Made by a program: the position numbers and the translations under genes. From the NCBI GenBank assembly GCA_030267565.1, contig BRXU01000005.1, positions 4,157,501 to 4,221,500 of the forward strand: DNA of 64,000 nt. The letters run 5' to 3'. Shown piece after piece: positions 9,633 to 56,799 of this stretch (within the stretch, counting starts at the first letter, position 1; every line of letters begins with the position of its first letter). Below the pieces are notes generated by a model, which saw only the letters and a program-made list of their open reading frames with translations, did not search any database and was not told the origin of the DNA. This DNA is from Pleodorina starrii. Lineage: Eukaryota; Chlorophyta; Chlorophyceae; Chlamydomonadales; Volvocaceae.

Positions 9633-9865
9633 TAGAAGATCAGATACCGCATATAAAAAGTGGGTAGGTGTCGTGTCGCGGCCGAGCAGTGGCCCATCCA
9701 TGCACACGGCACGCACGTACGTATGCACAGAGAGACGACTGATGACAGGAAAGACGAATTCAAAGAGCTTTGCTTGGCCAAAACGATGCGCGGACGTACA
9801 GTGCGTGCGTGCCTAGGAAAGAGAGGGATGGAAGCATGTATGAGTAAGCGCACGCACGCACCTCG

Positions 9866-10398
9866 TGTCGTGCACCGTTGGTGTCGGTACATTTCCGGGA
9901 CAAATGCCCGGTGAGGGCGCGGAGAGACGCTAGGAAGGACCCTCGAGCGTATCTGGACGTATCTCCATCTTATGGGAGATATTACGGTCGTACTGCTCGT
10001 CCAAACGAGCTCCTACCTAGGCGCGAGCGCTTCCTGCTGGAAGCGCTTCGCTTGGTCATTACGATGCCGAAGGATATATGATATTGTAACACACAATCAG
10101 ATCCCCAGCAGCGACTCTCGCTGTGGCGTTAGCCCAAGCCGCCACAATGGTGTCTCACATGCACTAGCGTGGCGCCGGCCGGGCCTGATCAACCTGGCTG
10201 GCTGCCTTATCGCTTGTGCATTATAGTAGTCAGCTCAGCAGCACTGTTGCTCGCGCGCACGTAGGCGCCGAGCTCGGACCTCACGCTAGGAAGAAGGAGC
10301 GCGGCCTCGCCCCAGCGGTCAGGCCTCGGGGCCAGTACTGGATGCAGTGAGCCCGGCTGCAGTCCAGCGGCTGTCGCGCACGCCCCGCGCGAGCCCAC
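9866..10398 (+). repeat. retrotransposon terminal repeat A1 (533 bp)
   Basis: It starts TGTCGTGC and matches 21443-21975 throughout by eye, with the same length. It contains TGTAA at 10085-10089, the usual green-algal polyadenylation signal, just after an AT-rich GGATATATGATA, so it probably holds both promoter and RNA 3'-end signals. It lacks the 54-bp B segment that follows A2 at the right end. Confidence 0.9.
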
Positions 10399-10892
10399 AC
10401 CAAGCGAAGCTTTATTGATGTGTATTCCGGAAAAGGCGCACTCGAGTGTGGGGATTGTCTGATCCGCCAGTATATGTAGTTGTAGACAGCTGCTGCTACC
10501 GAGCTCTGGAGCGTCTGGGCGTAGAGAGTGCCGTAGACCCGCCATATCGCGTTGACGGCGTCGTTATTTGAATTCACTGCTGGCCCCACCCCCCCCGCCG
10601 GAAACCGCGAGATGGTTGTTCGGGGGAGAACACCGCTCCGGACGAGATTCGATCTCGAGATGTGAGGAACCAGGCGAAGCCAAGCCATTGCGGACGTCCG
10701 CGAGCGGCTTTCGGGCTTCGGCACCTAGCTGAGGTCTGCAGACCACGGTTAGGTGTTAATTTCCAACGGCACGCACGCCGTTTGGAGGGTAGCCGCGAGC
10801 GCTGCCACATCGCTGCCACGGAGCAGCTCAGGACCTAGGCCAGGTCCTCGCGCCACGAGGCGCCCAACACGCTGGAGGCTTTAGAGGACGCA
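10399..10892 (+). other. retrotransposon 5' leader
   Basis: An untranslated leader of about 494 bp between A1 and the Gag start. It begins ACCAAGCGAAG and shows no tRNA-complementary PBS. A 21-bp block at 10429-10449 (begins GGAAAAGGCGCACTCGAG) recurs exactly at 20893-20913 near the other end of the internal region. Confidence 0.6.
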
Positions 10893-13800
10893 ATGTCAGC
10901 CTTCCAGCTCGCCGACGACTTTGACGTGGGCGACGAGTATGACGCCCCGCGCGAGACGGGGCTCCTACCTCGCGTGCCTGCGTCGCCAGCCGACCGGCGA
11001 CATCTTAGCGCGCTTAACAGGGTCGGGCCACAAGACGCCCGGGCCACACAGGCCCGCCTGGCGGGCGGCCTCAGCCCTCGCGAGTCGCCGGCCTCTCTAG
11101 TGACGGCCAACCCGAGCTCGTCACTCAGCCTCCGCCACCTGCCTGAACCAACCAACGGCGGCACCCCCATTCGTCAGCAGTCGCCTCCTTCTGGCGCCGG
11201 CTCCCGCCTCTTTCTCCACAGCCTCCGGAGCATCCACGGCGCCCAACCACCTCGCCCACGTTCTCCCCCGTCACCCCTGCCCTCCCCGGGGCCTCTGGAG
11301 GGCGGCTGGCCGCTCATGGCGGCCGCTGCCGCTCTTAACCCCTATGGTGGCGGCTTTGAGGCTCTGACGGCCTTGGAGGTGCCCGCCGCCGCCGCCGAGG
11401 CGGCAGGCGGGCGCCCCCGGGCAGTGGGAGCTGCGGAGCCGGAGATAGCAGCGGAGACGGGGGAGCGCGACGCTGCAACCATGCGAGCCGCGGCGGCGGT
11501 GGCAGCGGCGATGGACGCCGCGGCCACCGACGCGGCGGCGCGCGCGGCTGCGGAACGGACCGCGGCGGATACGGCCACCGCACGCGTGCCGGGCGTCACC
11601 GCCTTGGCGGACGGGCTTGCTATGGGCGCCGCGGCGGCGCTGGGCGCTCCAGCAGCGCCGGGCGCCGCGGCGGTACCGGCCGCCCACGCTGGCGTCCCCG
11701 GTTGTGATCCGGACCGGCTGCCCGCCCGCCGCCACGCCCTCGCTGGAGGGGCCCGTCGCGTGCTGGTGCCGGACCACACGCTCGAGGACACGCCGACCAC
11801 CGCGGTGCCGCCCTACACGCCCCTGTCCGTCTACCACACGGCGGATGAAGATGGTCGCACAGGGTGGAGGTTTGAGGGCTCGAGCCCCTTGGGGACCGAG
11901 CCCGGGCTGCGGGGGAACGGCGGTGTAGGACGGGGGAACCTCCTGCAAGGGGACAGCCCGGGGTTTGTTTTTGACGCCCCGCGCGTGCAGTTGCCTGCGG
12001 GGGGCCCGGCGGAGGGCATAGTTAGGACTGTGCTGGGTTACCGAGAGGTGGCGCAGGGGGGCGCGCGCCTGCATGCGAGCGTGCAGGAGGATCAGGATCA
12101 GGAGGGGGCAGATCGGGATTATGTAGAGAGGCTCATGGCCCGACTGCACCCTGGTGGCGCGATTGGCACCAGGCCGGCGACGCGCGGAACGGGTCCTCCG
12201 GTGGGCCCGCCTGCGCGGGATGCCGATGAGCTGCAGGCCGTGCTGCACGCCCTGCGGTCCATTGGGTACATTCCCCACGCAACCCAGCGCCCCCGCGACG
12301 GCGCGGGAGGGGGGCAAGAGCGCCGGGAGTCGCACGGCGACAACACTGCCACCGCCCGTGATAGGGCAGGCTCCAACGGGGTTGGGGGCCGGCCGTGGTG
12401 GCAAGATTTACAAATGGAGGCCGCCAGCTTCGGACCCGGCCCTGAGACGCCCCCCGACCTGCTCTGGACTGTTGGGCAGGTGGACACCATCCTCTCTTAC
12501 CACCAGCAGCGGGGCGCAAGGGGGGGCCGTGTCGCGCAGCTGTATGCCCTGGCGAGCCTGCGCACTCTGCCCGACACGCCCACAGCCAATCACCTAGTCG
12601 GGCTCCCGCTGCCCACACAGGCGGATCCGGCTATCTGGACAATTTCCCTAATGTTGTCCTACGTCCCCCATGCCTCCTCCCAGCAGGGTTGCACGGAGGC
12701 CGAGCTCTACTGGGTGGAGCTCCGTCATTACCTGAACAGGACCTACCCGCCGGTACCCCGCCGCGCCACGCTGCCCGCGGGTGCGGCGGGGCTGGGGCCC
12801 CCACTTGCGGCACCGCCACCGCAAGCGGCCAATGCCACCTCGCCACCAGGGGCCCCCTCAACCGGCGGTGCGCCGCCGACGCCGCCCACGCCGCCGCCTG
12901 GCCCCAATCCCCCACCACCTCCCTCGCCTTTGCCGTCCCCCTCTGGCGCCTCGCCGTCGGTGACACCAGCCGTGACGACGACGCCGTCGGACACGTCGGC
13001 CGGCGTGCAACGCCGGCCGGGCGAGATTGTCGCTCTCCCCCAGGACGACTGGGAGCCCGCCAAACCCGTCCAGGGCCAGGGCTACGAGTTCGACGGGAAG
13101 CCCCAAAACTATACAGCCTTCAAGAGCAAGGTGGAGAACTACCTGGTGACGGCGCTGGGGCCACGGTCTAGTGCCCGCTACAAGCACGCTGATTACAAGC
13201 ACGTCGTCACCGTGCTGGTCAGCATGTTCCTAAAAGCGGACAGCCCGCCCCGGCGGACGTACACGCAGCAGCGAATCGGCGAGCTGCTCGATGATCATTT
13301 CGCCGAGTACACGGCCGCTGGCGGGGACGCGGCGCTCTACCGCGGTCAGGCAGCGCCGCGGGAGGGCGCGCGCAACTTCGTCGACTTCTGGCTCGCCAAC
13401 GTGCTACAGATCACGGCTGGCAACGGCGCCGTTATCGAGCAGGAGTACGACGCGTACGTGTACCCGGTCGGAGTGGACCCAAACACCGCCGTCACCGAGT
13501 TCACCAGCCGGTTTTCGCTGCTGCCCGCTGAGACGTACGCCGAGCCAAGGAAGGCGCAATGGTTCCTGCGTGCCGCCATCCGCGCTCTCGCCGGCTACAA
13601 GCAGCTGAAGGAAGCGGTCCTGCGCCTCCGGACCGAAGACAAGTTCCACCTGCTCACGCTCCGGCAGGCGGCCAATATCATCGGCGCCATGGTGGGGGGA
13701 TCGGGGCTTTCCGGCCTGCAGCAGCGGCCTCCACACACGCTAAAGGAAGAGGACGACGGCGTCGGCGGCGGCAGCGGCGGGGGCACAGGTGGCGGCGGCA

Positions 13801-15560
13801 GTGCCACAGTCGGCGGTGGCTCTGGCAACAACAGTAGCGGCGGCGGCGGCGGCGGCAATGGGACAGGCGGCGGAGGCGGCCGCAAGAACCACACGGTCAA
13901 TGCGTTGGCGCCGTCCGGCAACAGATCCAAGGGCAACGCCCCCCGCGCCGAGCACGACCAGGTCACAATGGCGGCGGCCGCGGCGGCAGACCGGATCTGC
14001 CCCGAAGGACGCTGGGTAGCCCACCAGGACAAGACCTGCCGCCTGCACCCCTTCCTGGGCAGCAACCACAAGCAGCGGCACTGCAGGGGGTCCAAGCAGC
14101 GCATAGCGACGGATCCGGCGGGGCTGCTGGCGGAGATGCAGGCGAAGGTTCACGAGGCGCGGCAAGGGCGGGGGCTGCCGGCGGATTTGACGGACAAGTC
14201 TGTGCCAGCGTTGGCTTTGGCGCCTAGCGCTTCGCAACGCCAGGTCGACCGCATGGACGCGCAGCTTCAGCAGCTCCATCAGCTGCTGGCGGCGGAGCGC
14301 ATCCCGTCGTCAGCTGTATCGGAGGCAGCGGCCCCGCTGCCGGTACAGATGCTCGCATGGCGGCAGCAAGCAGCGCAGGCGCCACCGCCCCCACCACAGT
14401 CGGTGGCCCCCTCGGCAGTATCCTACCACCGGCACCCGGCAACGCCCCAGCTGCAGCACCCGCCTGCGTCGTACGCGGCCCCCTCCACGCCACCGCCACC
14501 GCCACCCTGGCCGGCAGCGGTGGCGATGCCCGCCGCCATGCCGGGCCCATACGATGCAGCGCCCCACTCATCCATAGCGCTGCCCTTCGGAACCTACGCC
14601 GTCTGCCCGGTCGGCGCGACGGTGGCAGAGCGCATGCCGCCGGGCTTCCAGCAGCATAACAGCCATGCACCTGCCAAGGCTCCGGAGAAAGGCCCGGCAG
14701 CCGCGCCCGGCTCTTACGACCACACCGCCGTCGCCGTGTTGCCTGGCCCGCTGACCCAGGCCATACAGCTACTGGACAATGCACGAAATTGCCTCGTCCA
14801 AATGCAGTCGTCGGCCCTGGCCGCGGTAAAGCCAGCGCCGCCGCCACTGGCGGCAGCGCAGGCAGCACCGCCGGCCGCCGCGCTGGCGTCGCCTGCAGCC
14901 GCCCTGCCGCCGTCGCCATCGGCGTCGGCGCTGGTGGCGCTCGCGACGCCGGCAGCCGCACTGGCGATGACGGACGCCTCGCTCCACCCAGCCAATATGG
15001 CCCTGTCGGACCACGACGACCTGGCGCGGCCGCTGCCGTACCTGCAGCAAACCTGGCCGGCAGAGAGCCTGCTGGTGGGCGGCGAGCTGGTGCGCGACGT
15101 GCTGGTCGACACCGGCAGCGCCATCATCATAGTCGCGCAGCGCTTGGCGGATCGGCTGCAGCTGCGGTGCCAGCCACGGCCCGAGTACACCGTCACCACC
15201 GCGGCAGGCCGCTCAACGCTGCTTGGCGAGGTGTGCGGGGGCCTGACGCTCACGTTCGGTGCCGGTGCTGGTCAGGGCCACACCATCTGGCTGCCGGCCA
15301 TGCTGGCAGCGGACTCCGGCGCCGAGGCCTATGAGTTGTTGCTGGGCATGCGCGCACTGCAGCCGCTTCAGTCCCGACTCGACCTGCGTGAGGGCCGGGA
15401 GAAACTTGAGATGTGGCCGCCGGGACACGGGTACCTTGGCATTCCCATCATCATCCGCTGGCCGTCCCTGGGCGGCGGTGTCGCACCACTAGCCGCGAGC
15501 ACAGCGGCGCCCACACTTCCACAGCCGCCCCCTCTCGCGGGGGGCGGCGGCTCCTTATGA
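10893..15560 (+). CDS. retrotransposon Gag-protease protein
   Basis: 1555 residues. Residues 1-640 are Ala/Gly/Pro/Arg-rich and low in complexity; 640-690 is a proline-rich linker. About 725-935 is a helical Gag-like core, beginning near EFDGKPQNYTAFK, expected to form the particle shell. About 945-985 is a polyglycine run. About 1034-1070 has Cys/His residues (ICPEGRW..KTCRLHPF..RHC) in the place of a nucleocapsid knuckle, but not in CCHC spacing. An Ala/Pro/Gln-rich stretch follows. The aspartic protease active site is VLVDTGSA at about residue 1405, and the flap/second half ends near ELLLGMRAL. Its stop TGA overlaps the RT start as ATGA (15557-15560). Confidence 0.88.
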   Translation: MSAFQLADDFDVGDEYDAPRETGLLPRVPASPADRRHLSALNRVGPQDARATQARLAGGLSPRESPASLVTANPSSSLSLRHLPEPTNGGTPIRQQSPPSGAGSRLFLHSLRSIHGAQPPRPRSPPSPLPSPGPLEGGWPLMAAAAALNPYGGGFEALTALEVPAAAAEAAGGRPRAVGAAEPEIAAETGERDAATMRAAAAVAAAMDAAATDAAARAAAERTAADTATARVPGVTALADGLAMGAAAALGAPAAPGAAAVPAAHAGVPGCDPDRLPARRHALAGGARRVLVPDHTLEDTPTTAVPPYTPLSVYHTADEDGRTGWRFEGSSPLGTEPGLRGNGGVGRGNLLQGDSPGFVFDAPRVQLPAGGPAEGIVRTVLGYREVAQGGARLHASVQEDQDQEGADRDYVERLMARLHPGGAIGTRPATRGTGPPVGPPARDADELQAVLHALRSIGYIPHATQRPRDGAGGGQERRESHGDNTATARDRAGSNGVGGRPWWQDLQMEAASFGPGPETPPDLLWTVGQVDTILSYHQQRGARGGRVAQLYALASLRTLPDTPTANHLVGLPLPTQADPAIWTISLMLSYVPHASSQQGCTEAELYWVELRHYLNRTYPPVPRRATLPAGAAGLGPPLAAPPPQAANATSPPGAPSTGGAPPTPPTPPPGPNPPPPPSPLPSPSGASPSVTPAVTTTPSDTSAGVQRRPGEIVALPQDDWEPAKPVQGQGYEFDGKPQNYTAFKSKVENYLVTALGPRSSARYKHADYKHVVTVLVSMFLKADSPPRRTYTQQRIGELLDDHFAEYTAAGGDAALYRGQAAPREGARNFVDFWLANVLQITAGNGAVIEQEYDAYVYPVGVDPNTAVTEFTSRFSLLPAETYAEPRKAQWFLRAAIRALAGYKQLKEAVLRLRTEDKFHLLTLRQAANIIGAMVGGSGLSGLQQRPPHTLKEEDDGVGGGSGGGTGGGGSATVGGGSGNNSSGGGGGGNGTGGGGGRKNHTVNALAPSGNRSKGNAPRAEHDQVTMAAAAAADRICPEGRWVAHQDKTCRLHPFLGSNHKQRHCRGSKQRIATDPAGLLAEMQAKVHEARQGRGLPADLTDKSVPALALAPSASQRQVDRMDAQLQQLHQLLAAERIPSSAVSEAAAPLPVQMLAWRQQAAQAPPPPPQSVAPSAVSYHRHPATPQLQHPPASYAAPSTPPPPPPWPAAVAMPAAMPGPYDAAPHSSIALPFGTYAVCPVGATVAERMPPGFQQHNSHAPAKAPEKGPAAAPGSYDHTAVAVLPGPLTQAIQLLDNARNCLVQMQSSALAAVKPAPPPLAAAQAAPPAAALASPAAALPPSPSASALVALATPAAALAMTDASLHPANMALSDHDDLARPLPYLQQTWPAESLLVGGELVRDVLVDTGSAIIIVAQRLADRLQLRCQPRPEYTVTTAAGRSTLLGEVCGGLTLTFGAGAGQGHTIWLPAMLAADSGAEAYELLLGMRALQPLQSRLDLREGREKLEMWPPGHGYLGIPIIIRWPSLGGGVAPLAASTAAPTLPQPPPLAGGGGSL

Positions 15561-18500
15561 GCGCCGCCGAAGCGGCGGGGATGCAGGACCCCGCCGCCTG
15601 GATGCCGGGGCTGTTGGACAGCGACAGCGACAGCGAGTATGACGACGGGCTGCTACAGCCGGCAGACTTCACGCCGGAGGGGAAGCGCATGCTCCCACCC
15701 GAGGCGAAATACGAGGTCACGCCAGGCAAGTGGCTGCTGTGCCAGCGCAGCGAGATGACTCCGGAGCTGAAGCGGCGGTTCCTGGACCTGGTGGGTCGCA
15801 ACGACGACATCTTCGCGCGCAGCATGCGGGATCTGGGCGAGTACCGCGGCGACGTAGGGCCTGCCCGCATCGAGCTGGCGCATCAGCGGCCGATCTATCA
15901 GCGCCCGCGCTCCCACAGCGCGGAGGAGTACGCCGCCATGGACGCAGCCTGCCAGGAGCTGCTGGAAGCCGGGATCATCGAGGAGAGCCGCTCAAGCTCC
16001 TTCGCCATGAACTCCACCCTGCCGCCCAAGCGAGCGGCGGACGGCACCTGGACGCAGCGGCGGTTTTGCCAGGACGCGCGCGAGCTCAACGCCGCCACGC
16101 TGCCTGACCTGCACCTATCGCCGCTGCCAGAGCAGCTTTTCCAGCAAGTGGGCGATGCTACGTGGCTGACCAAGATGGACTGCCGGGCCGCCTTCCTGCA
16201 GATCCCGCTGGCGCCCGAGCACCGGGAGCGCACTAGCTTCTGGTGGCGCCGGCGGCTGATGCAGTACAAGCGCCTGGTGTACGGCCTGCGGAATGCCACC
16301 GCCCACTTTCAGCGCGTCATGGACCACGCCATCCGCAAGCACGGCCTGGAGGAGTTCGTCGTCTGCTATGTGGACGACTTGCTTATCTACAGCCAAACGG
16401 CGGAGCAGCACCTTGAGCACCTGGCTCGGGTGTTCGCCATGCTGCGGGAGATTGGCATCCGGCTCCACCCGGAGAAGACGCTGGTGGGCGGTGACGCGGT
16501 GGAGTTCCTGGGCTTCATGGTGTCGGCGCAGGGCCTGTCGCCGACACGCGCCAAGGTGGAGGCGCTGCTGGCGCTGGAGCCGCCGAACTCGTCGGCGGCT
16601 GTACGGCGGCTGCTGGGCATGTTCTCGTATTACCGGGGGCTTGTTCCGCACTTCGCTGACATCACCGCGCCACTCAACCCGTTGACTAGCACCAAGTACG
16701 TGTGGCAGCCCAGCTCGTGGGGGCCGGAGCAACAGGCAGCGCTGGACGAACTCAAGCGGATCTACACCCAGATGGACGGGCCGGTGTTGCGGCGGGTCCA
16801 GCCGGACCGGCCGCTTATCCTGCATACGGACTTCTCGGGCGTGGGCATCAGCGGCATCCTCGGGCAGTTGGACGACAGTGGGCAGGAGTACCTGTGCGCG
16901 GCAGTCTCAAGATCGCTCAACGTGCACGAACGTAGGTACGACAGCTACAAGGGCGAGCTGCTGGCGGTGGTGTGGGCGTGCAAGATGTTCTACCCTTACC
17001 TAGCGGCCCGCCACTTCACCGTCGTCACGGACCACGCGCCGCTGCTGTGGCTCATGTCGCAGCAAGACGGCCTGCCGGCGCAGTATGCCCGGTGGGCCTT
17101 GCAGCTGCAGGCGTTTGCCTTCGACGTGGCGCACCGGCCCGGCAAGCTGCACCAAAACGCCGACGCCCTCAGCCGCCACCCGCTCACGTCTGCACACGAC
17201 GGCACAGGCGCACGCGTCGACGAGGAGGGCGACCCGCTGCGCCCGCCACCCGTGCTCGTTCAGTACCCGGGCGCGAGCTGGCCGCTGTACGCATACTCGC
17301 GTGCGCCGGAAGGCGCGCAGGCGCCGGCAGCGGTCGTCACGCACTTGGCAGCCGTAGCCAGGTGCTCAGCGGCCCTAGCCCGGCGTTTCTCAGTGCAGCA
17401 TGACCTGGAGGACCCGGCCACCAGCCTGGCCGCCGCCCCCGAGGCAGTCGGGCCGCTCGCTGGTCTGACACACCTCGCTGGCCCAGTGCCCGCTGCACGC
17501 GCCGCATATCTTTGCGTGCACGCGGTGTGTGCTGTGGTCAGTGTGGGGCTGCCGGTCATGGCGGCATCGGAGCTGGAGATCGACGACGAGCTGGAGGCCT
17601 TGGCGGCGGGACAGCCCGCCGCCGGGGATACGGAGGCCTTGGCGGCGGGGCAACCTGCCGCTGGGGAGCTGGAGGCCTTGGCGGCGGGGCAACCTGCCGC
17701 CGGGGTGTCGGCGCCTGGCAGCCCCTCGGGGCCGCCGGTCGCCGGCGATACTACATTGCACATTGCCGTTGCGCTCGTTCGCGACGAAGCCGCTGCACTA
17801 CGGCGGCTGCGCGCGGTTTCGGCGCTTGCGCTGCGCCTCCGCGCTGGAACAGGGGAGATTCTCGGAGTCAACACAGCACTTGTTCAACACGTCCTCTTTC
17901 CGGCAGCAGTAGGGGGCACTGGGGTTACGATTCTGGAGCTGCCGGGCGGCCTCGCTTCTGGCCTGCTCGCGTGCCTGGGTTTGGGTTTTCAGATACAGCG
18001 CTATGTGCACCTCTCATGCGACGCCCGCGAGCGGCGCGCGGTGGCACAACTTGTGCCTGTTTGGGGGATGCATTACGATGGTCAGCTTTCAGCAGGGGCT
18101 TGGGATTCGGGGCTAGTACCGGAGTTTAGCACACCCACGGAGCTTCTTCACTGGGGAGCGTCAGCAGCAGCCGTCGAGGCAATGGGCTTGGGGGACACGT
18201 CTGTGTGTTTAGTAGTAGGCAGCTGGGGGGGATCCACGTCCTGGGATACGCAGCACGTAGTTAGTTTCTTGGGGGGATTGCAGCACTATCGCGGCACACA
18301 AAGCTGGAGCTGGAGCTGGAGCTGCTGGAGACGTCATCCCCGCCGCCGGTCTTCCAGTTCGCTCTCTCCTTCTGCATGGCGCTGCACCGCGCGTTCGTCA
18401 CGCCGCACGACATGCAGTATCCTGCGGCACGGCACCTTGTGGCCTCACCGCAGGGGGGGGGAAGTGAGCTGGCGCCGCCGATTTCTTCTGGGGCCGCGGC

Positions 18501-18562
18501 AGCGGTCTCGGGGTCGGTGGCAGGACTGGCGGGAGGGGCAGCGCCGCCGCTACCGGCCTTAG
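15557..18562 (+). CDS. retrotransposon reverse transcriptase-RNase H, with methyltransferase-like tail
   Basis: About 1001 residues from the ATG at 15557, in the -1 frame relative to Gag-protease; the frame is also open back to 15413. The RT fingers and palm cover about residues 100-330, with catalytic YVDDLL at about 271 and LGFMVS following. RNase H begins with LHTDFSG at about 421, continues through GELLAVVWA and TDHAPLLW, and ends with HRPGKLHQNADALSR, the Ty3/Gypsy signature. A threefold 12-residue repeat (LEALAAGQPAAG-like) lies at about 678-717. About 790-905 resembles a Rossmann SAM-methyltransferase start (ILELPGGLASGLL, then HLSCDARERRAV). After 18277 this frame becomes Arg/Ser-rich and looks non-coding, and the true coding frame appears to move -1 into the integrase frame. 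Confidence 0.88.
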   Translation: MSAAEAAGMQDPAAWMPGLLDSDSDSEYDDGLLQPADFTPEGKRMLPPEAKYEVTPGKWLLCQRSEMTPELKRRFLDLVGRNDDIFARSMRDLGEYRGDVGPARIELAHQRPIYQRPRSHSAEEYAAMDAACQELLEAGIIEESRSSSFAMNSTLPPKRAADGTWTQRRFCQDARELNAATLPDLHLSPLPEQLFQQVGDATWLTKMDCRAAFLQIPLAPEHRERTSFWWRRRLMQYKRLVYGLRNATAHFQRVMDHAIRKHGLEEFVVCYVDDLLIYSQTAEQHLEHLARVFAMLREIGIRLHPEKTLVGGDAVEFLGFMVSAQGLSPTRAKVEALLALEPPNSSAAVRRLLGMFSYYRGLVPHFADITAPLNPLTSTKYVWQPSSWGPEQQAALDELKRIYTQMDGPVLRRVQPDRPLILHTDFSGVGISGILGQLDDSGQEYLCAAVSRSLNVHERRYDSYKGELLAVVWACKMFYPYLAARHFTVVTDHAPLLWLMSQQDGLPAQYARWALQLQAFAFDVAHRPGKLHQNADALSRHPLTSAHDGTGARVDEEGDPLRPPPVLVQYPGASWPLYAYSRAPEGAQAPAAVVTHLAAVARCSAALARRFSVQHDLEDPATSLAAAPEAVGPLAGLTHLAGPVPAARAAYLCVHAVCAVVSVGLPVMAASELEIDDELEALAAGQPAAGDTEALAAGQPAAGELEALAAGQPAAGVSAPGSPSGPPVAGDTTLHIAVALVRDEAAALRRLRAVSALALRLRAGTGEILGVNTALVQHVLFPAAVGGTGVTILELPGGLASGLLACLGLGFQIQRYVHLSCDARERRAVAQLVPVWGMHYDGQLSAGAWDSGLVPEFSTPTELLHWGASAAAVEAMGLGDTSVCLVVGSWGGSTSWDTQHVVSFLGGLQHYRGTQSWSWSWSCWRRHPRRRSSSSLSPSAWRCTARSSRRTTCSILRHGTLWPHRRGGEVSWRRRFLLGPRQRSRGRWQDWREGQRRRYRP

Positions 18563-20055
18563 CGGTTTCCGCTGTGGCGGTCCGCTGGTCGGCGGCGGCG
18601 GCCTGGGATGAGGAGCTGACGCCGCTGGCCTGCGCCTTGCTGACACAGCGGGCGCCTGGGCTGGCGGTGGTCATGGCCACGGCTGGGCTTGCCTCGGCTG
18701 TGGATGCGCAGGAGAGCGCATTGGCGGAAGGGACCGACCCTGACGTGTGGCTTGACGCGTCAACGCTGGCGCACCTCCAGGGCGCGCCGGCGGGGGTCGG
18801 GACCGACGGGCGGCCGGAACGGCGCGTGCTCCGACGGGCCGCGCTGTACCGGTGGACGGGGGATCAATTGCTTAGGGCCTGCAGCGACGGCTCGACGCGG
18901 GTCTGCCCGCCGCCCGACGCTCGGGAGGCCATCGTGCGGCAAGTGCACGCGGTGGCCCACCTGGGCATACGGCGAACCTTGGCGCTGGTGCAGCTGGGTC
19001 ACTGGTGGCACGGGATGCGAAAAACCGTCCAGCGGGTCGTGCGCAGCTGCAAGCTGTGCGACATGACCAACAGCGGCGGCGTCGCGCGCCCGATCCAGCT
19101 GCAGCCGTTGGCCATACGGGGCATGTTCTACCGCTGGGGCGTGGACCTGGCGGGACCTCTGCCCCCGACTGCGCCATTCGGCTATACTTACGTCATGGTG
19201 TGCATTGAACATTTCACCAAGCATGCGGAGTTTGTGGCCCTGCGGAGCAAGCAGCCCGACGAGACGTCCCGCGGTCTGTTGGAGCTGGTGGCCCGGTTCT
19301 CGGCCCCAGCCGAAGTGGTGACCGACCGCGGCGGTGAGTTCCAAGGGGCTTTCGCGGCGCTGCTGCGGCAATGCTTCGTCGACCATCGGCTGACCTCGGC
19401 GGGCCATCCCCAAGCAGACGGGGCCGCCGAGCGGCTGGTTCAGGTCGTCAAGGCGGCGCTGCGCAAGCACTGCAAGGACACGGGAAGGACGGACGATTGG
19501 GATCTGCAACTGCCTTGGCTGGCGCTCGCCTACCGCTGCTCGCCTCAGGCGTCGACCCGGTACTCGCCATACGAACTCATGTTCGGCGTGCCGCCGGTCG
19601 TACCGCCTGCTGTGCGGGAGCGCATGGCGGAGCCGCTGGGGCTGGCCGGCCCGGTGGGAGCTTACGCGGCGGCGCTCCAAGAGCGCGCCGCACTTCTGCA
19701 GCGGCATGCTCCCATCGCTGCGGCAAATCTGCTCATCGCCCAGCACCGAGACACGCGCCGGTACGCGCACGTGCGCTCAGGCAAGTACCGGCCGCCGGCT
19801 GTGGAGTTCGCCCCGGGCGACTACGTGTATGTGCGCCGGTCAGCGGTGCACAACACTCTGCAGATGCCGGTGTACGACGAGGTGCTGCGCGTAGAGCGGG
19901 TCGGAGCCATGGGGGTAGCAGTGTTGTTAGGGCGTGATGGGGGGCGGATTAGGCGTAGGATAGAGCAGCTGGTGCCGTGCCACCTGCCCGATCTTGATCC
20001 GATCGTCGACGTACGGCTGCAACGGCCAACCGCCGACCTCGCCTGCGAGGTCTGA
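18265..20055 (+). CDS. retrotransposon integrase
   Basis: The frame opens at 18265 and its first ATG is at 18376, which is 559 residues from the stop. Numbered from that Met, the HHCC zinc domain is at about 190-230 (VHAVAHLG, then CKLC). The DDE catalytic core has Asp257 (VDLAGP), Asp317 (VTDRGGEF) and Glu352 (GAAERLVQ), with 34 residues between the second Asp and the Glu. A GPY/F-like module follows (GDYVYVRR..RIEQLVPCHLP). Integrase inserts the cDNA into chromosomal DNA. The segment before the zinc domain, including Ala-rich sequence, probably continues the region started in the RT frame. The frame ends at a UGA at 20053-20055 but stays open beyond it for another 141 codons. Confidence 0.9.
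   Translation, partial: FLGGIAALSRHTKLELELELLETSSPPPVFQFALSFCMALHRAFVTPHDMQYPAARHLVASPQGGGSELAPPISSGAAAAVSGSVAGLAGGAAPPLPALAVSAVAVRWSAAAAWDEELTPLACALLTQRAPGLAVVMATAGLASAVDAQESALAEGTDPDVWLDASTLAHLQGAPAGVGTDGRPERRVLRRAALYRWTGDQLLRACSDGSTRVCPPPDAREAIVRQVHAVAHLGIRRTLALVQLGHWWHGMRKTVQRVVRSCKLCDMTNSGGVARPIQLQPLAIRGMFYRWGVDLAGPLPPTAPFGYTYVMVCIEHFTKHAEFVALRSKQPDETSRGLLELVARFSAPAEVVTDRGGEFQGAFAALLRQCFVDHRLTSAGHPQADGAAERLVQVVKAALRKHCKDTGRTDDWDLQLPWLALAYRCSPQASTRYSPYELMFGVPPVVPPAVRERMAEPLGLAGPVGAYAAALQERAALLQRHAPIAAANLLIAQHRDTRRYAHVRSGKYRPPAVEFAPGDYVYVRRSAVHNTLQMPVYDEVLRVERVGAMGVAVLLGRDGGRIRRRIEQLVPCHLPDLDPIVDVRLQRPTADLACEV
18271..18277 (+). promoter_or_regulatory. candidate -1 ribosomal frameshift heptamer (G GGG GGA)
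   Basis: The heptamer is in exact X XXY YYZ register with the RT frame (codons TTG GGG GGA). It falls just inside the window where the integrase frame is open, which starts at 18265 after a TAG at 18262-18264. A one-base homopolymer indel would give the same picture. Confidence 0.5.
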
Positions 20056-20481
20056 GAGTCGCCCGAAGATGAGGCGCGCATGCTGCTGTGCGATGCGTGC
20101 GGGACAGGCTGGCACCTGCAGTGCCTGTCCCCGCCGCTGAGCGCGGTGCCGCCGGGACAGTGGGTCTGCCCTGAGTGTGTCAAGCTCAGGCGCGAGGCCC
20201 CGGTGGGGCCAGAGATGGCCTTGCCCAAGGCGGCGCCGGTCCTGTTCCCCAACGCCGCCACGCGGCGGCGGGACGAGCAAGCGGCAGCACTCGACGGTGT
20301 CCGGGTCAAGCGTGTCTTGTACACGGGGCAAGGAAGGCAGCGGGCGAAGTCAGTGGTTTGGGGTACGGTGCGGTATCGCGGAGCATTGGCTAGGCCCCAC
20401 TACTTTCTCGTCGAGTGGGACGAGGGGTCAGCTGAGCCGATGGGCATCACCGCGGTCAACCGCCTGTTGGTGACTGGATGA
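20056..20481 (+). CDS. PHD-finger extension of the integrase, beyond an in-frame UGA
   Basis: This segment is in the same frame as the integrase. Read across the UGA it makes a C4HC3 PHD finger: first Cys at 20044, then x2, then the UGA, then LLCDACGTGWHLQC, PPLSAVP and WVCPEC. Seven of eight ligands are visible, and the only missing one is the codon that reads UGA. PHD fingers bind histone H3 tails, so the domain would be suited to steering integration to chromatin, a role chromodomains play in other Ty3/Gypsy elements. The C-terminal part (FLVEWDEGSAEP) resembles a small beta-barrel reader, tentatively Tudor- or chromo-like. An independent start at 20080 would lack the first zinc pair. Confidence 0.75.
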   Translation, partial: ESPEDEARMLLCDACGTGWHLQCLSPPLSAVPPGQWVCPECVKLRREAPVGPEMALPKAAPVLFPNAATRRRDEQAAALDGVRVKRVLYTGQGRQRAKSVVWGTVRYRGALARPHYFLVEWDEGSAEPMGITAVNRLLVTG

Positions 20482-21378
20482 TTGGGGGGCTTAGTGCAGT
20501 GGTTTACTGGGTTGCCTCACGGCCGGGTACTCAGCGGAGGTTGGAAGACCGCTTGTGCGCGGCAACGGACCTTTGACCTGGTGGTGATCCGCGAAGGGTC
20601 GTTTGGGCCTGAACAGGCCGTCAGACTGCGCGCGCGCGCGACTAGAGGAACTGAACCTTCCGGCGCGGCGCCGCGTGGCGCGTTGTGTGACTGTTTCGCC
20701 CCGGCAGATCGCCGCCTTGCGGCTGGGGGGGAGACAGGGCTCGGGGCTTAGACCCGGCGGGAAGGCGGCTAACCGCCTTGCCTAACGCAGGTTGCAGGGG
20801 TGTTCCTTCGGGGGGGGCTCTCGCGTGAGTGTCCTCGACGTTGGGACCTAGACGCCCACGGTGGCGCAGTTTGGGCCGCAATGGCCGCGCTTGGAAAAGG
20901 CGCACTCGAGTGTTTCTTCGGTGCTATTGCCTTGGGAAGAGTGAAGTATAGCGCGCGCGTGCTTGGGCTGGGCGCCACTGGCGCAGGACGGCACGACGTT
21001 GTGCGAACGCAGACCTCGGATTCCAGAGCAGCAGACTCCGGACAAACCGCGTATTCGGATTTGGATCTTGGCGACCTCCGCGAGACGGGCGCGAAGCTCT
21101 TATTGCCGGACGATAGCGCGCCTTGACTTGTGCATGCTAGGCCGCGAGCGCCTCGCTAGATAGACGAATAGCCGTTTAGCGGCGCCGTACACCCTCGTTT
21201 ATGTGGTGGGCGGAAACCCGTAGTAGTTGCATTGCGACCGGCGTCAGGCTTCCGTGCCGGCCGGATAGTCGCAGGACAGTTGCAGGTCTAGCCTCGCTGT
21301 CCTTCAGGATCGGTAGCTGTTTACTCGCGCCGCGCGTCATAGCCAGCACCTCCCTCGCTTAGCTTCGCTGCTACGTTC
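20482..21378 (+). other. retrotransposon 3' untranslated region
   Basis: About 0.9 kb with no domain-bearing frame. It contains the second copy of the 21-bp block (20893-20913) and ends in the G-tract. Confidence 0.6.
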
Positions 21379-21388
21379 GGGGGGGGGA
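21379..21388 (+). promoter_or_regulatory. polypurine tract
   Basis: GGGGGGGGGA just upstream of the right-end repeats. This is where a retroelement's plus-strand primer is expected. Unusually, it abuts B1 rather than A2. Confidence 0.6.
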
Positions 21389-21440
21389 GTCCGCGTACCC
21401 AGTGTCGCGGGCACATGCCTTCCAGCGTTGGGGCATGACA
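21387..21440 (+). repeat. retrotransposon repeat B1 (54 bp)
   Basis: It starts GAGTCCGCGTACCC and ends GGGGCATGACA. It is identical to 21976-22029 by eye and separated from A2 by 2 bp (GC). Confidence 0.9.
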
Positions 21441-21442
21441 GC

Positions 21443-21975
21443 TGTCGTGCACCGTTGGTGTCGGTACATTTCCGGGACAAATGCCCGGTGAGGGCGCGGA
21501 GAGACGCTAGGAAGGACCCTCGAGCGTATCTGGACGTATCTCCATCTTATGGGAGATATTACGGTCGTACTGCTCGTCCAAACGAGCTCCTACCTAGGCG
21601 CGAGCGCTTCCTGCTGGAAGCGCTTCGCTTGGTCATTACGATGCCGAAGGATATATGATATTGTAACACACAATCAGATCCCCAGCAGCGACTCTCGCTG
21701 TGGCGTTAGCCCAAGCCGCCACAATGGTGTCTCACATGCACTAGCGTGGCGCCGGCCGGGCCTGATCAACCTGGCTGGCTGCCTTATCGCTTGTGCATTA
21801 TAGTAGTCAGCTCAGCAGCACTGTTGCTCGCGCGCACGTAGGCGCCGAGCTCGGACCTCACGCTAGGAAGAAGGAGCGCGGCCTCGCCCCAGCGGTCAGG
21901 CCTCGGGGCCAGTACTGGATGCAGTGAGCCCGGCTGCAGTCCAGCGGCTGTCGCGCACGCCCCGCGCGAGCCCAC
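21443..21975 (+). repeat. retrotransposon terminal repeat A2 (533 bp)
   Basis: It matches A1 (9866-10398) with no difference found by eye. TGTAA lies at 21662-21666. Confidence 0.9.
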
Positions 21976-22029
21976 GAGTCCGCGTACCCAGTGTCGCGGG
22001 CACATGCCTTCCAGCGTTGGGGCATGACA
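21976..22029 (+). repeat. retrotransposon repeat B2 (54 bp), right terminus
   Basis: The second copy of B1, directly after A2. It ends GCATGACA, nearly the reverse complement of the element's first 8 bases. Host exon sequence resumes at 22030/22031. Confidence 0.9.
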
Positions 22030-22030
22030 G

Positions 22031-23999
22031 TCGATCCGTCGAATGGCGTCCGACATGCGCCCACCGTTTCGGCAGATGCTGCCGGTCGTGATGGCGGGCG
22101 TTACGTCATCTGTCGCCGCCGGCAGCTCCAAGTCCCCATCGGCCACTCCGCCTTCGCCCCGCCGCCGCAGCCCGCTGACGACGGGGGTCGTCTCCGACCG
22201 TGAAGACAGATCGCTGTAGTAGGCCTGGACGTACGGCATTATTGAGAGAGTGCGCGCACGACAGCGAAATGGATACCCTGTGAGCTTTGAAGAATTTCTC
22301 TTTCTCTCGTCGACTCGATCACCGTTTGCTTGTTGTGGGGTGCGTCCGTGCGTCCAGCCACACCCGCTCCTCACTTACACAGCCATCCATTGAACGGCGA
22401 CGAAGTAAGACACGCATACAATCCGTCGATCTCCCAGCAGCCCACCCGACTTACATTCAGCTCCCTAATGAACTGATGTTCGTCCAGGTCAAGCAGCAGA
22501 GGGGGCGGGCCTGCCGCCGACTTGCCGCCGGCCGCTGCATCGAAGCAGTCTGCTGCTGCGCCCGGTCGTCCTTGCCTCCGACGTCCATCCGACCACGCTT
22601 CCGAGGCAGCAGTAGTCTTGCTGACGCCTGACGACTGCACGGCGCGGCTACTGTTGCTGCTGCTGTTATAGCTGCCGCTGCTGTTGTAGTGGCTCTCCAG
22701 CGCCCTTCGAAACGCAATAAGGTGCGCCTGCGTGCAGTCCGCGAGATGCATGCGTCGTATTCGTCGCGCATCAAATTACGTAGTTGTATATATATGTACA
22801 TGCTGGCTTGCACATGCGTTGATACGTAGCAGGCGGCGGCAGCGTTCCGAAGCAGCAGCCTTAGCTTCAGCCGGCTAACCCTCTCCCCCCGCCCCATGCA
22901 TCCTATGCGCTTATTACCTGCGACAAATGGGAGAGCTCCGCAGCATGCTCATGTTTGGTCAATCCAGCGACCTAACGGCTCATCGTAAACACCACCAACT
23001 ACGCAAACATTTCTAAACTTAACCCAGTAGTCCTCCAGATTGCTGGCAGTCCATCCTGCCTGTTCACAGGGCCTCGAGCATATGCATGCATGCCAAACAG
23101 TCGTGTAATAGGCTCACTGCGCCAAATCAACGTGCACACAGTTGTTATTCGCCTGCACACGCACGCCCGACCTACCTCCGCCGTGATGGTGCATTTACGC
23201 GCCGTCGGCGACGCGCCCACGGCTCCATCTGCCGTCGGCCGCAACCAGCACCCGCCCGCCGCTGCCGCCGCCGCCGCAACGCTGCCGCAGGACGACAATC
23301 CTGCTGCCCCCGACGGCATTGATGACGATTGCCCCCCGCCAAGCTCCCCAAATCCAACAGCAGCAGAGCCCGCCGCTGATCCACCCATGGCGGTAGCCCC
23401 TCCACCCACTACGCCTCCATGTGCAGACTCAGCGCTGCACCCTACTTGGGCGACTCCCTGCTGTTCTGTCGGCGACGCCACGCCCTCCGCCGGCAACGGC
23501 GCCCCAAACGTCCAATAATCCCTACAGCCGTTCTCGTCTCCGCGCCTCCTCTTCCTCACACGTGAAGCGAGCGCGGCAGCTGCAAGGACGACCAGCGCGG
23601 TTGCTACTATTGCCGATGCGCTGGCCACAAGTGGGACCACCCAGGCGGGGCGTCTGGAATGATGAGGGCTGCTGACGTAGGGCTCGGATAGCGGTGGTGT
23701 CACTATTGCTGGGTTCAACGCGCCGTAAGCGCTGCTGCCGCTGTCACTGCTGCTGACGCCGCCGTCGCCGCTGACGCTGCCGTCGCCGCCGTCACCGCCG
23801 TCACCGCCGTCGCCGCTGACGCCGCTGACGCCGCCCTCGCCGCTGACGCCGGTGACACCGCCGTCGCCGTTGACGCCGCCGTTGCCGTTGACGCCGCCGT
23901 TGCCGTTGACGCCGCTGTCGCCGCCGTCGCCACTGACGCTGCTGCCGCGCGCACGGGGGCTTTTACTCCAGGCATCAACCTGCAGGTCGATCGGGAGGT
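22031..23999 (-). CDS. receptor kinase, transmembrane and juxtamembrane exons
   Basis: Three exons: 23999-23176, 22727-22455 and 22224-22031 (cut by the retrotransposon). Phases match throughout. The first opens with a short conserved-looking stretch, then a long Gly/Val/Asn/Ser stalk (coding minisatellite). A transmembrane helix follows (VPLVASASAIVATALVVLAA), bounded by a basic stop-transfer RVRKRRR, and then an Ala/Gly-rich cytoplasmic region. The second encodes Ser/Asn-rich sequence ending LDEHQFIRELN. The third has YYSDLSSRSE followed by low complexity. No catalytic motifs occur here. The region links the membrane to the kinase and could carry phosphorylation sites (inference). Confidence 0.8.
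23754..23940 (-). repeat. coding minisatellite in the receptor stalk
   Basis: Degenerate repeats of a unit encoding G-D/N-G-G-V-(N/S/T)-G sit in the extracellular stalk next to the membrane helix. On the plus strand they read as GCCGCCGT(C/T)GCCG-type repeats. The array is in frame throughout, so unit-number changes would vary stalk length without frameshift. Confidence 0.8.
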
Positions 24000-27995: not shown

Positions 27996-28239
<244 letters not shown>

Positions 28240-28391
28240 GAATAACGCCCGGAGGCCGAGATGTGCGTGAAGGGAGCAGAAGAGGAGGGGTTACGGGTTT
28301 CCCCGGTCCAGAATCGTGGCGCCATGATGAGCATGCAGTACTATTGTTTCTCATGCACACTACTGCTGCGCCTGAATTACGGTATCAGTAC

Positions 28392-45840: not shown

Positions 45841-46050
45841 CTCCCCTCGCAGCAAACCGAACAACATCATCAACAGTAGCAGCCGTGCACTGAATGTGCG
45901 CACCTCCCAAGTCCCAACTCAACTCAGCTAAACTCATCTCAACTGGCGTCTCGGGCCGATGAAGACTGGACCGTTCGGATTGTGTGGGAGCACGGGAGCA
46001 CGGACATCCCCCGGTTCCCCCGCGCCCCTCCGTTCCAAACAGCCGACAAC
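45841..46050 (+). repeat. ~210-bp direct repeat, copy 1 (left of ABCG gene)
   Basis: It starts CTCCCCTCGCAGCAAAC and ends near AACAGCCGACAAC. It aligns end to end with 56294-56503 with scattered substitutions and small gaps. Shared blocks include GTGCGCACCTCCCAA and TTCCCCCGCGCCCCTCCGTT. Confidence 0.85.
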
Positions 46051-46600
46051 ATGTAAAAGCTATCGGTGGAGCAAATCGTGTGGCCGCTGGGGGCCCATAA
46101 GCTGGCGGATTGCAGGCAGCCAGGCCTCAAAACGTAAGCCCTTTGCACGTTCGCGATGTTCCCTTTCTCGTCCAAGGTTGTGGGTCGGGTCTAATTGGGC
46201 GACAACTGGCCATGTCACGTGCGTGGGTCAAACAACGGCAGGCGGGCCCAAACCACCGACCGGCATTCGCCCATTAGCAAACAACAGTTGTTGCTAACAC
46301 TGAAAACGTTGTCCATTCACAGACGTCGGCGCAAAACTTTCAGCAGTCTGATTGCGGCTCGATGTCTACTCGCTGCGTAACCTGACCCGTGGGTCGGTGT
46401 CAATGGATGGCCACAGGTTCCTTCTTCGTACACGCAAGTAAAGGAGCGTGTTGAAGTTGCGCGGCGAGCGCCTACTGTGCAATCTGGGCGCTGCTTCCTC
46501 TGATCCTCTCCACCTGCCTGGTCGTGTCCAGTCGGCTTCCGTAGCAGCTGCTCAGCCAGCCTGCTGCTGGGTGTATGCTGTGTGGTGGTGGGACTGGTCC

Positions 46601-56293: not shown

Positions 56294-56503
56294 CTCCCCT
56301 CGCAGCAAACTACCGAACAATAACGATAACGGTAACGGTAACAGCCATGTACCAATTGTGCGCACCTCCCAACCCAACCCAACCCAGCTCAATTGGCATC
56401 CCGGGCCGGTGGGGACTGGACCGGTCCGTTCAGAGTGTGTGTGAACAGGAGCACGGATATCCCCTGGTTCCCCCGCGCCCCTCCGTTTCAAACAGCCCAC
56501 AAC
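56294..56503 (+). repeat. ~210-bp direct repeat, copy 2 (right of ABCG gene)
   Basis: In the same orientation as 45841-46050, about 10.45 kb away. It ends near AACAGCCCACAAC. Confidence 0.85.
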
Positions 56504-56799
56504 CTGCAGCGCCCCTTGCAGGCGCTCAACAGGACAGAGCAGGACTGCTGCACTCATTGGTGCAGCCCACCCGCCAGAGAATCAAACGTGCCAACCCGCC
56601 TGCGCACTTCACCCTCACGCCGCCAAAACGAAAGCGAAGACCGGCCCGCAAGTGCCTTCAAGTGCCTTCAAGTGCAGGTGCAGGCCACCCCCCCGCGCGC
56701 GCGCCCACGTCCCCAAGCAAATACCCAAATCTGCGCGACGCCCGCCCTGCCCTGCCTTGCCCTCCCGTACCATGCCATAATGCCCTCTCAACACTCAAC

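Follow-up and report, generated by a model that had tools for sequence, protein, structure and literature searches.

Split direct repeats and a probable internal integrase site in a Ty3/Gypsy family of the alga Pleodorina starrii

Introduction

According to the accepted view, the integrases of retroviruses and of long terminal repeat (LTR) elements work at the termini of linear complementary DNA (cDNA), and Tf1, an element that primes its own reverse transcription, integrates from its cDNA ends. Among volvocine hosts, Chlamydomonas reinhardtii harbours REM1, a Gypsy-type element with a PHD-type domain. Here, we analysed a 64,000-nt stretch of the Pleodorina starrii genome (assembly GCA_030267565.1, contig BRXU01000005.1, C5:4157501-4221500), which contains a Ty3/Gypsy element with a DDE integrase and with direct repeats split in the order A1-ORFs-B1-A2-B2 (ORF, open reading frame). 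This whole stretch is hereafter called the window, and positions given without a contig are window positions. Comparison of the copies of this family makes it quite probable that the element integrates through an internal site of its cDNA and that the ends of the cDNA are joined later.

In the sections of two accounts that concern them, split direct repeats are described solely for tyrosine-recombinase elements (PMC4157794, PMC8969392), and the main text of a Chlamydomonas survey, in the parts on Gypsy elements, mentions these without split repeats (PMC8226300). Our searches of open-licence PMC papers, a scope outside which subscription papers and Repbase lie, found no account of a DDE-integrase element with split direct repeats. 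For a spleen necrosis virus vector, integration from an internal LTR-LTR junction was claimed by Panganiban and Temin in 1984; according to the passages on this work in PMC11054761, the junction was an engineered one, and the circle model was later dropped in favour of linear DNA. Unlike that of the vector, the internal site described below is natural and is conserved in five families.

Structure of the element and its distribution in the genome

In the window copy, the two copies of A (A1, 9866-10398; A2, the right copy, 21443-21975; 533 bp) were 100% identical, as were the two copies of B (B1, 21387-21441; B2, 21976-22030; 55 bp), and because of these identities this copy is best regarded as a recent insertion. 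All features of the element to which a strand applies lie on the forward strand. A1 starts with TGTCGTGC, the putative integrase end, and stops where the self-primer binding site begins, at the end of U5. B1 forms the start of the predicted cDNA repeat (U3 start) and ends with GGGGCATGACA, the second putative integrase end, at 21440. B2, which is full length in this copy, ends likewise with GACA at 22029, the right end of the element (features 21387-21440 and 21976-22029), and base 22030 is already the first base of the right target-site duplication. A polypurine tract of nine Gs (21379-21387), followed by AG, adjoins B1, in agreement with a preliminary description of this locus, which had placed the G-tract before B1 and not before A2. 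Its assignment of the locus to a Gypsy element with a DDE integrase and split direct repeats A1-B1-A2-B2 was likewise upheld by the repeats of the window and by the Pfam domains described below.

The termini of other copies, the comparison that the preliminary description had called for, were then analysed in the whole genome (136 Mb, 95 contigs). Because the search with A gave scores to 40 of the 132 candidates of a first look, the copy counts given here are lower bounds. All 40 best candidates were full-length A, and at least 48 distinct A places could be read in the fetched loci. The pattern of the B end, with up to two mismatches allowed, was found at 46 places genome-wide; at 23 of them GC and then A came next (B1 type), and at the other 23 this was not the case (B2 type). 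A G-run lay upstream of the B-A junction, and the sequence GACA-GC-TGTC was present at the B1-A2 junction, in 23/23 B1-type places; a primer binding site (PBS) followed A in two of these (C1:896908 and C2:6950328), both lying in inverted chimaeras. Because all 23 B1-type places throughout the genome carry the upstream G-run, the split-repeat arrangement A1/B1-A2-B2, shared by the other copies, is to be read as the normal structure of the family and not as a one-off.

The window family has at least four related families in this genome, and the integrases of families 2-5 are 43-60% identical to its own. The possibility of a one-off rearrangement or an assembly collapse had been raised in the preliminary description. 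Such an origin, or a nested insertion, is favoured solely by the imperfect target-site duplication of the window copy (three of four bases, see below); it is refuted by the 23 B1-A2 junctions at separate places and by the recurrence of this layout in four further families. No copies with ordinary full-length LTRs at both ends were found, and we give this explanation practically no weight.

The copies varied in the presence of a segment, T, after A1, in internal deletions and in the sequence following A2. Segment T, as defined by comparison of copies, is 271 bp in length (approximately 10399-10669) and is carried by the window copy, while in several autonomous copies A1 and the PBS are directly joined to the leader. 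In some non-autonomous copies T is tandem; units tandem or inverted were seen in those on C2, C16 and C25, among others. A TTCCGGAAAAGGCGCACTCGAGTG-like motif occurs in T, near 20890 and again in the spacer of family 4.

Two solo A+B copies, on C49 and C6, were both flanked by target duplications, and their structure is the one expected after A1 and A2 have recombined with each other. The possibility, considered earlier, that A2 plus B2 is the true LTR can be retained in part: A..B appears to be the unit seen by the integrase, as judged from the solo copies with their duplications, but the unit produced by reverse transcription would be B-GC-A.

Self-priming and the ends of the cDNA

Directly 3' of A1 lies the PBS ACCAAGCGAAGC (10399-10410), which is the exact reverse complement of the 12-nt sequence GCTTCGCTTGGT at positions 180-191 of A (10045-10056). 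The statement in the preliminary description that no PBS follows A1 was thus incorrect. As far as the sequence goes, this complementarity suggests that the primer is the element itself and not the 3' end of a tRNA. The pair of primer and PBS was exact in 24 of the 26 listed places of the window family, the remaining two being one mismatch and one extension fossil. The bases following A also had a complement within A in family 4 (A position 299, 15-16 nt), family 3 (position 402, 10-11 nt; a second locus of this family, in which the end motif is absent, was left unscored) and family 5 (position 270, 13 nt), and the primer sequences of the four families were unrelated to one another. In the Tf1-type self-priming elements, too, the PBS is complementary to the 5' region of the element that carries it; unlike in those, the complement lies 180-402 nt into A in the families described here. 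The fold predicted for the 406-nt leader of a T-less copy contained the closed 12-bp helix (z -3.0), and one of 100 shuffled sequences was as stable.

Two joints suggest fossils of a self-primed extension product. In the copy at C37:955775, A breaks off exactly at the end of the primer (position 191), where the reverse complement of the 3' end of A takes over. In the family 4 copy at C6:3404603, A2 and a 45-bp spacer are followed by the 16-nt primer, to which a complete reverse complement of A is attached. Pairs of inverted A with a spacing like that of this copy (C6:3404400-3405900) were also present on C4, C9 and C22.

The polypurine tract consisted of nine Gs in 37 of 42 matches in the fetched loci, which overlap. 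Among the 23 B2-type ends, B2 extended back as far as the end of the G-tract but never into it, and the same was observed in families 3-5. Given the PBS behind A, the position of the G9 tract next to B1 and the limit of B2 at that tract, we infer that the cDNA terminates at the end of A and the start of B and that reverse transcription yields the repeat B-GC-A. We also considered that the PBS of an otherwise ordinary LTR element might be misplaced, and rejected this, as the positions of the PBS and the G-tract are consistent with one another and between the four families. Priming and strand transfer look Tf1-like, with self-priming as their sole departure from the normal course. The preliminary description had, as one of two options, sought the unusual step in priming or in a template switch; in our analysis, the odd step would be the choice of the integrase site.

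The probable internal integrase site and target-site duplications

The ends that bear the target-site duplications sit back to back within the cDNA repeat, as GCATGACA-GC-TGTCGTGC (21433-21450), a near-palindrome that resembles a 2-LTR circle junction and that we regard, on account of the GC spacer and the related families, as the probable internal integrase site. The GC spacer is also present in the sites of families 2-5, including GCGTGACA-GC-TGTCACGC and GCGTGACA-GC-TGTCATGC, and the layout GACA-GC-TG is common to the four related families. As a control, we used a distant Gypsy family represented at C2:4390833, the integrase of which is approximately 30% identical. This family is ordinary: both ends carry one matching 377-bp repeat, which a G-tract directly precedes and TTGGTATCGAG, taken here to be tRNA-like, follows, and the target duplication is TCGAC, of 5 bp (read by eye). 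The control therefore has the same full LTR at both ends, between the polypurine tract and the PBS, these ends being the integrase ends, whereas the window family does not. The fetched stretches of a second control Gypsy family, on C28, yielded no LTR pair, and the ordinary control is thus one family. In family 3, A repeats lie at equal spacing (2598 and 3971 bp; C12:2920097-2925513 and C42:740807-748960), as if the units were tandem.

For the duplication test, TGTC/TGAC of A1 was taken as the left end of an insertion and GACA of B2 as its right end. Of the 17 copies of the window family for which both ends were available, 14 had an exact 4-bp duplication (C2:6948-6961, C4:683, C6, C8:1417, C9, C10, C15, C17, C21, C25, C35, C38, C42 and C49), as did 9 of 10 copies of the related families (family 3, 4/4; family 4, 4/5; family 5, 1/1). 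When the four families were pooled, 23/27 duplications were exact, compared with a mean of 1.0 and a maximum of 7 in 20,000 rounds in which the right ends were shuffled. For the copy at C4:6.83 Mb, the right flank was known before the left flank was fetched, and the left flank then matched. Long chance matches far downstream (C4:6262500) were left uncounted.

We also tested copies without B2, ten of which were given and one of which (family 4, C39) was dropped, as the end of A was not found. In 7 of the remaining 9, the left 4-mer recurred within 25 nt after the end of A2, compared with an expected 1.05, and none of 20,000 random rounds reached this number.

These duplications bear on two other explanations of the repeat order. 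The order is the same as that of PAT elements, which are present in volvocine algae (sections of PMC4157794 and PMC8226300), and a tyrosine-recombinase element of this kind could be envisaged. No tyrosine recombinase domain was detected in four translated pieces of the window copy (Pfam, E up to 0.01), in which an rve integrase is present, and 4-bp duplications are absent from DIRS-type elements according to the relevant part of PMC8969392. The duplications rule out such an element unless a recombinase acts in trans, and we consider the chance of this negligible. Alternatively, the reverse transcriptase may switch template at the end of A2 and so add B2 during reverse transcription, in which case the ends of the linear cDNA would be the integrase ends. 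Template switching is a known ability of reverse transcriptases, and in the C38 copy B2 shares a variant with B1; but homology-free switching at ragged positions in nearly every copy would be unusual, and neither the 5' end located exactly at TGTC inside the repeat nor the B2-less copies that keep the duplication would be explained. This explanation appears improbable to us.

The A2/B2 joint and the proposed order of events

The joint between A2 and B2 (21975/21976 in the window copy) varied between copies in filler and truncation. It was direct, with a full B, in the window copy and in C49, whereas C4:683, C5:3361 and C38 showed a displacement of between one and a few bases. B was cut to 16 nt in C6, while the longest fillers were approximately 44 nt (C9); B1 and A2 were lost in C17, and 137 nt of A2 was left in C35. 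The raggedness suggests that the joint is sealed anew at each insertion. At two loci (C2:6948596-6961596 and C25:949469-951827), a second cDNA, inverted, was caught at the joint, and the duplications were exact. At C1:885-898 kb, two cDNAs are chimaeric and inverted within one insertion. Products of one-LTR circles, in which A1-internal-B1 would lie directly at the target, were not found among the copies, the G-tract being directly before B in 0/23 B2-type ends.

From the anatomy, the duplications, the complementarity and the ragged joint observed in these sequences, we infer the following series of reactions. The RNA starting in A1 would fold, and GCUUCGCUUGGU would pair with the site right after A1 and prime the minus strand. 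The usual strand transfers and plus-strand priming at G9 would then give, to judge from the limits of A and B, a linear cDNA of the form B-GC-A-internal-B-GC-A. The integrase would skip the outer ends of this cDNA and cut GACA-GC-TGTC in the 5' repeat, approximately 55 bp from the cDNA end. The TGTC end of A1 and the GACA end of a 55-bp stub, the later B2, both of which are seen next to the duplications, would be joined to the target with a 4-bp stagger. Finally, host end joining would seal the free end of A2 to the free end of the stub, producing A1-internal-B1-A2/B2 with a ragged joint; where the stub was lost, A2 would be joined to the target and the duplication kept. The internal cut has a precedent in vitro, where the palindromic junction of two LTRs is cut internally by the integrases of HIV-1 and of foamy virus, as reported in passages of PMC1905944 and in the abstract of PMC1180852.

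The same product could be formed in the opposite order, if the ends of the linear cDNA were first joined into a 2-LTR-like circle with a ragged A/B joint and the integrase then opened one internal GACA-GC-TGTC. A circular form was proposed for retroviruses in 1984 (as related in part of PMC11054761), and this order accounts for the arrangement A1-internal-B1-A2/B2, the ragged joint, the duplications and the two inverted chimaeras with exact duplications. A circle would, however, contain two equal sites, and half of the insertions should then have the form A2/B2-A1-internal-B1, which was observed in 0/23; the B2-less copies with a duplication (7/9) would also be unexpected. We regard the circle as a possible but rather unlikely intermediate. 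Integration first and joining second is the order that we moderately favour, because the B2-less copies keep the 4-mer, and because all 23 B-A junctions have the upstream G-tract and none is of the A/B-A1-PBS type that use of the 3' site would give.

Several observations weigh against integration at an internal site followed by end joining. Use of the 5' site alone has no explanation in the model. At C1 (885-898 kb), the left end, beside the leader, is not an A1. The site of family 3 is a poor palindrome, and family 2 is known from one rearranged 3' end only. The flanks of the window copy, CTCG (9862-9865) and GTCG (22030-22033), match at 3/4 bases only, and no matching duplication was found in C32, C37:955775 or the family 4 copy at C20:877341; in C32 and C37:955775 the start of A1 is degenerate, and the left bases were set by judgement and read by eye. 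The left end was not in hand for 7 of the 23 B2-type ends (C1:6517, C1:9323, C3, C5:3361, C5:835, C12 and C29), nor was the right end for several non-autonomous copies. As for the joint, only three of the eight fillers tested resemble copies of sequence close by (p <=0.04 against shuffles), which makes the polymerase-theta-like filler signature a partial one.

Coding region and classification

The domains of the window copy, as identified with Pfam, are in the order of Ty3/Gypsy elements: protease, reverse transcriptase, RNase H, H2C2 and rve integrase, and PHD finger. ORF1 (10839-15560; 1573 aa, stop to stop) is Gag-like and has an aspartic protease at its C-terminus (PF13975; residues 1420-1461), a weak match with an E-value of 6e-5, below the curated cut-off of Pfam. 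The first pol frame (15410-18562) encodes the reverse transcriptase (PF00078, E 6.7e-25) and RNase H (PF17917, E 2.1e-29), and the second (18265-20055) encodes the integrase, with an H2C2 zinc finger (PF17921, E 7e-15) and an rve core (PF00665, E 4e-8), both above the cut-off. The PHD finger (PF00628, E 1.7e-10) and the region after it (20056-20480) lie beyond an in-frame stop. The pol of the window copy is therefore broken, with reverse transcriptase/RNase H and integrase in different frames and a stop between the integrase and the PHD finger; at the place of the frame break, four other copies that span it have approximately 439 bp more than the window copy. An open frame of 1836 aa around the integrase was present in nine listed copies, and intact copies therefore exist.

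Among the best 120 of 768 matches, the relatives found by protein search were algal Gypsy-type polyproteins, the nearest being from Astrephomene gubernaculifera (69% over the reverse transcriptase/RNase H stretch), with others from Volvox and Tetrabaena. A plasmid search with the integrase gave only three weak bacterial matches, and a search of viral contigs with the polyprotein of a relative gave no match.

By gene order and integrase, the family belongs to Ty3/Gypsy, and by the layout of its repeats it is PAT-like, neither definition being fully satisfied by the sequence. In common with Ty3/Gypsy (Metaviridae), it has the order protease-reverse transcriptase-RNase H-integrase, with H2C2 and rve domains, a G-rich polypurine tract, 4-bp target duplications, TG..CA ends and solo copies. 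Unlike in Ty3/Gypsy, the apparent integrase ends differ from the cDNA ends, the left repeat lacks B, the right repeat has an extra B, and the A2/B2 joint is ragged. The layout A1-internal-B1-A2-B2 is that of the PAT, Toc, Kangaroo and Ngaro elements (in the sections of PMC4157794 and PMC8969392 on repeat structure); unlike these, the window family has target duplications and an integrase of the retroviral kind, and lacks a tyrosine recombinase.

Together, the five families lead us to propose, with somewhat more confidence than doubt, that an entire clade of Gypsy elements in algae has dispensed with integration from the cDNA ends, that it uses a site resembling a circle junction inside the linear cDNA, with the host sealing the two free ends, and that its split repeats are thus convergent. 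If this is true, split direct repeats can arise by convergence from an integrase of the retroviral type. Natural families that appear to use an internal circle junction routinely, in a group of culturable organisms, make this question a testable one, and the insertion of a mobile element would be tied to host end joining. Split direct repeats alone would then be no mark of a tyrosine recombinase, and elements of this kind may be wrongly classified or overlooked by annotation pipelines.

Other features of the window

Outside the element, a direct repeat pair of approximately 220 bp was found at 45841-46053 and 56294-56506, with 75.8% identity. A TAA repeat of 83 units with 99% matches, striking amid the G+C-rich sequence of the window, lies at 27997-28245.

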